Assembly (NCBI GenBank): GCA_023150615.1
Contig: JAKLKO010000021.1
Location: forward strand, 1-64,000
Reading direction: 5' to 3'
DNA: 64,000 nucleotides
Source: Phycisphaerae bacterium
GTDB taxonomy: Bacteria > Planctomycetota > Phycisphaerae > UBA1845 > UTPLA1
The notes under the pieces are model-generated. The model saw only the letters and a list, made by a program, of their open reading frames with translations, did no database searches and was not told the DNA's origin. A program made the position numbers and the translations under genes. This document shows positions 56,060 to 58,197 of the stretch, one piece after another. The first letter of the stretch is position 1; the number at the start of each line of letters is the position of its first letter.

Positions 56060-56086
56060 GTCATTCCGGCGAAAGCAGAAATCCAG
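56060..56086 (+). repeat. Degenerate copy of the dispersed GTCATTCC...GAAA...GAATCCAG element
   Basis: 27 bases match the widespread palindromic repeat that normally forms a hairpin around GAAA; here the stem has mismatches. Only one copy was noticed. It lies at the left border of the lower-G+C HD/YwgA segment. Confidence 0.45.
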
Positions 56087-56168
56087 TACGCCCCGCCTCA
56101 GAAGTCGCGCACGCCGTTTCGAGGAGAATCGCCTTTCCCGCCGTTAAGTCCGTACCGGAAGCCGTGGG

Positions 56169-56197
56169 TTGACGCCACTCAATCCCCATGCTATATT
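56169..56197 (+). promoter_or_regulatory. Strong sigma-70-type promoter of the HD/YwgA pair
   Basis: TTGACG (56169-56174), a 17-base spacer, TATATT (56192-56197): 5/6 at both boxes. RNA start near 56204, 36 bases before the GTG. Confidence 0.72.
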
Positions 56198-56239
56198 AGG
56201 TTTTAGTTAGGTAGACAAGGCTCTTCGAGTGGCGCTGTC

Positions 56240-57634
56240 GTGAGCAACGGAATCCGAGTACGCGATCCGGTTCACAACTTCATCGTTCTTCGTGCCGATG
56301 AAGTGAAGTTGGTTGACACGCCGATTTTCCAGCGCCTGCGAGGCATCCGCCAGCTCGCTATGGCAAACCTGGTCTACCCAGGCGCCTTGCATACCCGCTT
56401 CGACCACAGTCTCGGAGTTTGCCACGTTGCGGGCCTGTTGGCCGAGCAGCTTCGTCTTTCCAATGACGAAGTCGAGTTGGTACGACTCGCCGCCCTGCTT
56501 CACGACCTCGGACATGGTCCGTTCAGCCATGTTTCAGAGCACATGCTTGATTGGTACGCCGACAGCGCGAAGCTTGGCGCGGACCAGAAGACCGAAAAGA
56601 TCCACGAGCGCATCACCGCCCATCTGATCGAAAACGACGCCGACATTCAACGAATCATCGGGCGCGACAAGTGCGAGAAAATCACCAGGCTGCTCGATGA
56701 TGGCTTCGGACAACCTGCCCTTCGCGCGATCGTCTCGGGGCCATTGGATGCCGACAAGCAGGACTACCTGCTACGCGACAGCCACTTTTGCGGGGTCGCA
56801 TATGGGCTCTTCGACATTCACCAGTTTCATCGGTCCTTGGTTCTCGAAGGACCACCGGACGAAAAGGAACTGATGATCGACCCTGACGGCGTCCATGCGG
56901 TTGAGCAATATGTGCTTGCAAAATACTACCTGACCACCAACGTTTACCGCCATCGGGTTCGCCTGATCACTGACCAGATGATCATCCGAGCGATCCGCCT
57001 GGGAATTGACGTAGATGGGGTCGAAAACCTCAAGAGACTCTTTTCATTCGATGGGTCCGCAACGTTCTATGAGAATTACCCCAAATGGGATGATTCTGCT
57101 TTTCTGGCTGAGTTCGCGAGCAACCAATCGCGCGGACCGCTGAGTTGCGAGCTTTTGCAACGGCTCCAGCGACGACGCCTTTTGAAACGCGTGTTTTCAT
57201 GTCCGCTGCAGGAATTCAAGAACACGGAGACCCGGACCCTTCTCACCAAGATCGGCGAACGGGAAAACGACGCGAGACGCGCCAAACTCGAGGCAGAGAT
57301 CGCTGCAGTCTTGCCACGACAGGGCGATCAGGCGGTCGAGCCTCGGTTCGTCATCGTACACCCCTACACGATCCGCTCCGTTCGGGTTTCATCCCGCAAT
57401 GACGGCGCAGGAATGATGGTTGCACGTGGGCCCACTCCTCGTCCGTTCGAGCAGGATTCGGCCCTGTTCGCTTCGATCGATGAGGGTTACAACGAGGGCT
57501 ATGTCGAGGTATACGCGCCCATTTTCTGGGATTCAGAAACAGACAAGCGCCGCATTCGCCGGGAACTTGAAAAGCCGATTCGTGATATCTTGGAAGCCTT
57601 GCACGAGGAAAAGAAAGAAGGGAAGCCGTCATGA
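56240..57634 (+). CDS. HD-superfamily nucleotide phosphohydrolase (YwfO/SAMHD1-like)
   Basis: 464 residues. The HD pattern is HTRFDHSLGV with His51, ALLHDLGHGPFSHV with His88 and Asp89, and a distal Asp in LDADKQDYLLRDS near residue 175. RVRDPVHNFIVL and FQRLRGIRQLAMANLVYPGA at the N-terminus are typical of the YwfO/SAMHD1-like dNTP triphosphohydrolase group, including the allosteric-type helices. The C-terminal ~150 residues are less conserved. GTG start at 56240; no better start fits. G+C is clearly lower than in neighbours (31 of 60 bases in 56881-56940). Overlaps the YwgA-like gene by 4 bases. Probable role: hydrolysis of dNTPs or a related nucleotide. Confidence 0.85.
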   Translation: MSNGIRVRDPVHNFIVLRADEVKLVDTPIFQRLRGIRQLAMANLVYPGALHTRFDHSLGVCHVAGLLAEQLRLSNDEVELVRLAALLHDLGHGPFSHVSEHMLDWYADSAKLGADQKTEKIHERITAHLIENDADIQRIIGRDKCEKITRLLDDGFGQPALRAIVSGPLDADKQDYLLRDSHFCGVAYGLFDIHQFHRSLVLEGPPDEKELMIDPDGVHAVEQYVLAKYYLTTNVYRHRVRLITDQMIIRAIRLGIDVDGVENLKRLFSFDGSATFYENYPKWDDSAFLAEFASNQSRGPLSCELLQRLQRRRLLKRVFSCPLQEFKNTETRTLLTKIGERENDARRAKLEAEIAAVLPRQGDQAVEPRFVIVHPYTIRSVRVSSRNDGAGMMVARGPTPRPFEQDSALFASIDEGYNEGYVEVYAPIFWDSETDKRRIRRELEKPIRDILEALHEEKKEGKPS

Positions 57635-58197
57635 AACCGATTGACTTCGTCCATCTGACGCTGCTCGCGTTGGGCGGCAAGATCAGCGGAAAAACCAATC
57701 TCCAGAAAAAGGTGTACTTTCTCGGCCTACTGACCGGCAAACTGGAAGAACTCGGCTATCGGCCGCATTACTACGGTCCTTATTCCGAGAGTGTCGCAAC
57801 CGCCGTCGAAGACCTCAAGACCGTCGGCTTTGTTGATCAAAACGTCACGTCCACATTCGGCATCGACGACATGGGATTCGAGCGCCGTCGCTACGACTAT
57901 ACGCTGACGCCGGACGGTCTCCAACTGGCCAAAGCGAAGAAGAACGAACTCCCCGAGGATTGGAACAAGCTGGAAGAGGCCGTACGCGTCCTGAACAGGG
58001 CCGGCGAACGCGATTACATGAAGCTCTCGATCGCCGCAAAGACCTACTTCCTTCTGGGGCAGGAGAAGAAAGCCACCACACAAGACGAACTGGCTAGGCT
58101 GGCTCCACGCTTCGGCTGGCGCGTGTCACGCGAAGAGATAGTGCAAGCAGCCGAATATCTCAAGGCACTAGGCCTGATTGTGACAGAACGCAATTGA
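57631..58197 (+). CDS. YwgA-like protein
   Basis: 188 residues, soluble. The start reads GGKISGKTNLQKKVYFLGLL, then GYRPHYYGPYSESVATAVED and FVDQNV, the pattern of YwgA proteins and of the N-terminal helical fold shared with Panacea/SocA-like antitoxin domains. The C-terminal half is winged-helix-like (SIAAKTYFLL, then SREEIVQAAEYLKALGLI). No catalytic residues recognised. ATG overlaps the HD stop (ATGA), so the two are coupled. In Bacillus, ywgA lies next to ywfO, encoding the same HD family; that pairing across phyla argues for a functional complex (from memory, unverified). It shares the low G+C of the HD gene. Confidence 0.8.
   Translation: MKPIDFVHLTLLALGGKISGKTNLQKKVYFLGLLTGKLEELGYRPHYYGPYSESVATAVEDLKTVGFVDQNVTSTFGIDDMGFERRRYDYTLTPDGLQLAKAKKNELPEDWNKLEEAVRVLNRAGERDYMKLSIAAKTYFLLGQEKKATTQDELARLAPRFGWRVSREEIVQAAEYLKALGLIVTERN

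Follow-up and report, generated by a model that had tools for sequence, protein, structure and literature searches.

Several described systems bear on the two-gene locus analyzed here. Clover is a two-gene unit linked to phage defense that combines an HD-domain dNTPase with a partner; its dGTPase, CloA, is toxic without the second gene and is restrained by a nucleotide signal, p3diT, made by the nucleotidyltransferase CloB (PMC12265719). In DarTG, the antitoxin DarG restrains DarT partly through direct binding (PMC12170906). Among the triphosphohydrolases of the SAMHD1/EF1143 type, EF1143 is a dNTP-pool enzyme (PMC8177086). An earlier note on a stretch of Phycisphaerae DNA (64,000 nucleotides of contig JAKLKO010000021.1, hereafter the window) had proposed that an HD phosphohydrolase gene and a YwgA-like gene form a horizontally moved defense unit with a toxin-antitoxin-like logic. 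We put the chances at roughly even (about 0.5) that the pair is a mobile anti-phage module in which a dNTP-depleting effector of the SAMHD1/EF1143 type is held in check by an inhibitor resembling the C-terminal domain of DarG (DarG-C).

The features of the locus are collected in Table 1. Both open reading frames are present as the earlier note described, and the stop codon of gene 1 and the start codon of gene 2 share the sequence ATGA (57631-57634), which is consistent with the type II toxin-antitoxin layout of two closely spaced genes in one operon. The low G+C content is also as reported, including the exact count of 31 among the 60 positions of 56881-56940. Overall GC is 0.563 for gene 1 and 0.556 for gene 2 versus 0.684-0.685 for the flanks, GC3 is 0.66 and 0.68 versus 0.78-0.91 in eight flanking genes, and a window-wide comparison places the start of the lowest-GC stretch of 1,958 bases at 56134. 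The proposed promoter is likewise found upstream, in a region that carries 2 promoter-like sites, compared with an expectation of 0.7.

Table 1. Positions of the two genes and of their candidate functional features within the window
Feature	Position	Strand	Remarks
Sigma-70-like promoter, TTGACG-N17-TATATT, 5′ of the pair	56169-56197	+	Candidate, by consensus match only (10/12 positions)
Gene 1, HD phosphohydrolase	56240-57634	+	GTG start, 464 aa
Codons 26-34 with D26, Q31 and R34	56315-56341	+	Correspond to SAMHD1 allosteric site 1 (D137, Q142, R145) by spacing and alignment
HD motif codons, His88-Asp89	56501-56506	+	Correspond to SAMHD1 H206/D207 by alignment and spacing
Gene 2, YwgA-like, stand-alone DarG-C type	57631-58197	+	ATG start, 188 aa
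HYYGPYSE signature codons, gene 2 residues 46-53	57766-57789	+	Identical in 10/10 rows of alignment A3

The pair stands alone as a cassette amid metabolic, non-defense neighbors in the window genome. Genes for a P5C reductase, a protein kinase, a sigma factor, an aldehyde dehydrogenase and an aminotransferase lie on one flank, and genes for an AHSA1-type protein, a DUF1761 protein, a TetR regulator and a NUDIX protein lie on the other. A search for attachment-site repeats flanking the pair yielded none that were convincing, and no clean empty site was found in the same family because the aminotransferase orthologues (about 70-73% identical) have other surroundings. A REP-like palindrome, GTCATTCCGGCGAAAGCAGAAATCCAG, is located shortly 5′ of the pair at 56060-56086, and six dispersed copies with at most 3 mismatches occur in the genome.

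The identification of gene 1 as a SAMHD1-like enzyme is supported. The protein matches the Pfam families HD (4e-13) and HD_assoc_2 (2e-13), and the nearest solved structures by sequence are 2hek, EF1143 (2o6i), fungal SAMHD1 (9mr6), 2q14 and human SAMHD1. Its predicted model (pLDDT 89) aligns with SAMHD1 chains over nearly the full length (Foldseek E about 2e-19, TM about 0.65-0.71) and contains the whole catalytic-core fold of a SAMHD1/EF1143-type dNTPase. Judged by alignment with SAMHD1 and by spacing, the metal ligands H56, H88, D89 and D172 are present, and R53, H92, H97 and H122, which include the catalytic histidines, are likewise kept. His88 and Asp89, correctly recognized before as the HD motif, are unchanged in all 37 paired and 29 orphan relatives, the latter being HD proteins without a partner gene. 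All metal, catalytic and allosteric residues other than D26 are identical throughout the 37 paired relatives and almost always identical in the 29 orphans; within allosteric site 1, Q31 and R34 are unchanged among paired relatives and D26 varies.

Thus, by sequence and predicted structure, the HD protein is an enzyme of the SAMHD1/EF1143 type, with which it shares metal ligands, catalytic histidines, allosteric site 1 and the whole fold, and we infer that it probably hydrolyzes dNTPs. It differs from SAMHD1 in being only about 23-25% identical, in lacking a SAM domain and in being paired with a DarG-C-type protein. The anti-phage dGTPases of the Dgt type (NF041026, PADLOC dGTPase) share the same HD core, with an alignment of about 90 residues, but the HD protein has no match to them outside this core. 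It scores 24.7 bits against NF041026, for which the cut-off is 400, and 35.3 bits against TIGR01353, for which the cut-off is 152.

The view of the two genes as a conserved unit gains support from searches for their homologues, which are adjacent far more often than expected by chance. The HD and partner genes are neighbors in seven phyla and in either order. When species genomes were searched with the partner only, 9 of 12 cross-phylum loci had an adjacent HD gene (in Armatimonadota, Acidobacteriota, Chloroflexota, Bacillota, Pseudomonadota and Thermodesulfobacteriota). The pair is not mainly a Firmicutes feature. In the 61 related genomes, an HD gene adjoins every one of the six partner matches other than the window's own, and each of the 11 strongest other HD matches has a partner-like open reading frame beside it. 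In a set of 294 genomes from the phylum, an HD gene adjoins each of the seven stand-alone partners with the best scores apart from the window's own, a count that leaves out L048, whose frame is broken, and a second copy in G316; most of the partner matches with lower scores belong to DarG or to other architectures. For HD matches other than the window's own in these 294 genomes, 7 of the best 12 are paired and none of the next 17.

The arrangement is also compact. The genes overlap or lie no more than 25 bases apart in 35 of 36 scored pairs, with some overlap lengths inflated by the choice of start codon, and the partner is downstream in 32 and upstream in 4. That the two genes stay together although their order can be swapped points to a functional link. 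There are also orphan HD relatives whose active site is the same, and so the partner is not always needed. All of the HD matches examined in plasmid and phage records (L100-L104) are orphans as well. L100, from the Klebsiella phage record ST11-VIM1phi8.3, and L101, from a Klebsiella plasmid, encode nearly identical orphan HD proteins of 510 aa. The L101 gene adjoins type VI secretion genes, a chromosomal-like context which suggests that the L100 phage record may include host flank.

A tree of 69 HD proteins, built by a quick method and with long branches that leave some deep joins unsure, agrees with the proposal that the pair is mobile. The HD protein of the window falls in a clade of 8, all paired, that spans four phyla and two viral contigs. 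Its members come from Armatimonadota, Acidobacteriota, Chloroflexota, the two viral contigs and one genome of another family of the window's phylum, in which the HD protein is 63% and the partner 54% identical to those of the window. The pairs of genomes from the window's own family (G003, G007 and G009) belong to other, distant clades. Each of the two largest orphan clades comes from one single family. The labels paired and orphan change 8 times on the tree versus 23 times in shuffles, and because at least 6 changes are needed, the partner has been gained or lost several times. The pair moves horizontally and is not vertically inherited. Two of the three outcomes that would have counted against the earlier note, rare adjacency and vertical inheritance, are thus at odds with the data.

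Phages are among its carriers. In IMG/VR, with viral status as called there and with alignment A3 as the query because A1 was too divergent, 10 of 26 HD loci have a partner, corresponding to 9 distinct viral contigs, and in all nine of these the GC of the pair is below that of the rest of the locus. On the 35-kb contig L110, the pair directly follows a phage integrase gene and a CI-like repressor gene is nearby. Terminase genes are present on L112 and L125. In L109, L111 and L129, the pair adjoins very long genes that appear tail-like by eye, for two of which PHROGs gave only a family of unknown function. No clear phage gene was seen in the part of the contig that was read for L116, L124 and L131.

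The suggested link to defense is strengthened by neighborhoods in other hosts, for which genes were called with a custom script. Restriction, helicase or AbiE genes are clear defense neighbors in 5 of the 21 paired host loci that have a called HD gene. In L141, from the window's own family, the pair is situated between genes for a restriction subunit and a likely specificity subunit (assigned by position, with no Pfam match) on one side and an N6-methylase/HsdM gene on the other; a type I restriction operon can thus enclose the pair. In L011 the distance from a PLD_Helicase gene (1237 bits) to the start of the downstream pair is about 65 bases, and in L152 an HmaA-like helicase gene (620 bits) precedes the pair by 140 bases. 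In L150 and L151, it is beside an HKD+Snf2 helicase, and L151 additionally carries AbiEi, AbiEii, an Eco57I-type methylase and an integrase. Among the 25 families listed for the nearest 95 neighbors of 17 orphan loci, a set not matched to the paired loci in taxonomy, such helicases are absent, although matches to PD-T4-6 kinases and others are present. Separately, orphan HD genes in Sinorhizobium pSymA (L102:1948-9413) and on a Desulfosarcina plasmid (L103:7848-16203) lie no more than a few kb from CBASS-type gene sets.

These distributions also bear on the possibility that the pair serves dNTP homeostasis without a role in defense, with the enzyme trimming nucleotide pools and the partner tuning it, perhaps as in the pairs of Bacilli. 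The known function of EF1143, the occurrence of pairs in Bacillus and Clostridia chromosomes, and the metabolic genes that surround the window's pair would all be at home in such an arrangement. However, by partner matches only 7 of the 61 related genomes carry the pair, and this patchiness, together with the foreign composition, the carriage by phages and the siting inside defense operons, makes a housekeeping function of this kind unlikely.

For gene 2, none of the family libraries used gives the name YwgA, and the best models are those of DarG, with weak matches in NCBIfam (2e-5) and PADLOC (5e-7). The predicted model (pLDDT 87) has as its top structure match the DarG chain of the Mycobacterium tuberculosis DarTG complex (7yk3), and realignment yields a Z of 14.4 across 169 aa. 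When 18 partner proteins were combined into a profile and compared by hhalign with DarG C-terminal domains, the probability was 98.8% over 153 columns, and the G, P and S of the HYYGPYSE signature are unchanged in all 18 partner rows. Against NF048014, gene 2 scores 24.1 bits where the cut-off is 250. Neither the N-terminal macrodomain of DarG nor an adjacent DarT is present; gene 2 begins with the C-terminal-type domain, and the HD gene is upstream. Its profile and modelled fold thus identify gene 2 as a stand-alone DarG C-terminal domain, the part that in DarG binds and blocks DarT.

The N-terminal part of the partner, residues 1 to about 115, also matches winged-helix proteins of the PadR, MarR and archaeal-virus types at Z 8 to 10 (best Z 10.2, mostly over these residues only), and gene 2 is basic, with a pI of 8.6. 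The partner might accordingly be a transcription factor that only autoregulates the operon, leaving the HD protein as a self-sufficient, allosterically gated dNTPase. We find this somewhat less probable still than a role in homeostasis, because the DarG match is both better and longer, and because the position of a regulator within an operon is usually free, unlike the tight link to an HD gene seen here across phyla and in both gene orders.

An inhibitory partner of the DarG-C type might not act exactly as DarG does. Deep et al. reportedly found in 2023 that the DarG C-terminal domain acts on DarT through mimicry of single-stranded DNA. The idea that the partner is an acidic DNA mimic finds no support in the family, in which net charges range from -14 to +7, and the basic pI of gene 2 argues against simple DNA mimicry; its inhibitory surface may therefore differ from that of DarG. 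The effector gene of the pair usually comes first, just as DarT precedes DarG in L047. The pair differs from DarTG in having no macrodomain and no DarT and in that the neighbor is a predicted nucleotide hydrolase.

The earlier note had reached its toxin-antitoxin-like logic through a resemblance to Panacea/SocA. The logic gains support by way of DarG (7yk3), and the resemblance is not clearly upheld: gene 2 gives no match to Panacea (PF13274) at E up to 1, DarG-C is far closer, and we rejected membership in Panacea. Against a thin set of three Panacea proteins, the partner profile reached a probability of 1.2, with the QK-Y and GP motifs in register. A relative, L059, matches PF13274 at 6.6e-5, just short of the cut-off, and thereby forms a bridge between the DarG-C group and Panacea. 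At L059:701-1896 and L057:380-1782, a YwgA-like gene is followed by one for a predicted membrane protein.

Like Panacea/SocA, a small antitoxin-like domain found beside different effectors, the DarG-C/YwgA-like domain recurs in several settings. Protein A of the candidate defense system PDC-M19 begins with a domain related to gene 2, but there it is part of a DUF488 fusion whose partner is PDC-M19B rather than an HD enzyme. Fusions of a YwgA-like domain to DUF488 with a PDC-M19B gene following them were seen in L054, L064 and L068, and the L068 unit adjoins a type I methylase gene. A small YwgA-like open reading frame lies directly 5′ of a proteasome-like (Ntn-hydrolase) gene in two genomes of the phylum that are unrelated to each other (L058:1483-2703 and L066:496-1716), which is possibly another two-gene unit with the same domain. 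The domain turns up in DarG and PDC-M19A, as a neighbor of proteasome-like hydrolases, and also in a type I specificity model, and so would seem to be one with many partners. The PDC-M19A fusion, which has no known antitoxin role, and a stable adjacency that is compatible with any partnership would also allow the partner to be an activator or phage sensor by which the HD enzyme is turned on, but this is the least probable of the readings considered, since the DarG-C-type domain with a solved complex inhibits (7yk3; PMC12170906) and the second gene of Clover restrains its enzyme (PMC12265719).

Tentatively, and at somewhat less than even odds, the DarG-C/YwgA-like domain could be a second promiscuous antitoxin-type domain besides Panacea, one that is used with DarT, SAMHD1-type dNTPases, DUF488/PDC-M19 and proteasome-like hydrolases. 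If so, the HD pair would represent a SAMHD1-type immune system that a protein restrains and that bacteria and phages have in common.

A regulated anti-phage module is probably what best accounts for a pair that travels as a unit, is carried by phages, can be sited in a restriction operon, and joins a SAMHD1 relative to an antitoxin-like partner. In such a module, the HD enzyme would remove triphosphate from dNTPs under the gating of a (d)GTP-type allosteric site, and the partner would be made from the same transcript, bind the enzyme directly and keep it quiet, as the DarG C-terminus does with DarT. We infer that perturbation by a phage, either as rising dNTPs or as loss or capture of the inhibitor, would serve as the trigger, and that the freed enzyme would drain the dNTPs that the phage needs and so protect the cell. 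Perhaps phage-borne copies are cargo that shields the lysogen from rival phages. The second protein sets this arrangement apart from Clover, in which CloB is a nucleotidyltransferase and CloA is of the Dgt/dGTPase branch; no nucleotidyltransferase family was found in gene 2 in Pfam, NCBIfam or PADLOC, and its predicted fold is that of DarG-C. Taken whole, neither protein qualifies for a PADLOC or NCBIfam system, and the pair belongs to none of DarTG, Clover and the catalogued dGTPase systems. Our literature search, whose scope largely excluded subscription papers, found no description of the pair, including in work on YwgA and YwfO, and the pair does not seem to have been described before.

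The draining of dNTPs is an antiviral strategy common to animals and bacteria, one that raises the question of how cells restrain the enzymes involved. Clover answers it with an inhibitory nucleotide, whereas the pair described here would do so with an inhibitory protein of the DarG-C type acting on bacterial enzymes that resemble human SAMHD1 over almost their full length. Many unnamed YwgA-like neighbors of defense genes thereby gain a testable role.
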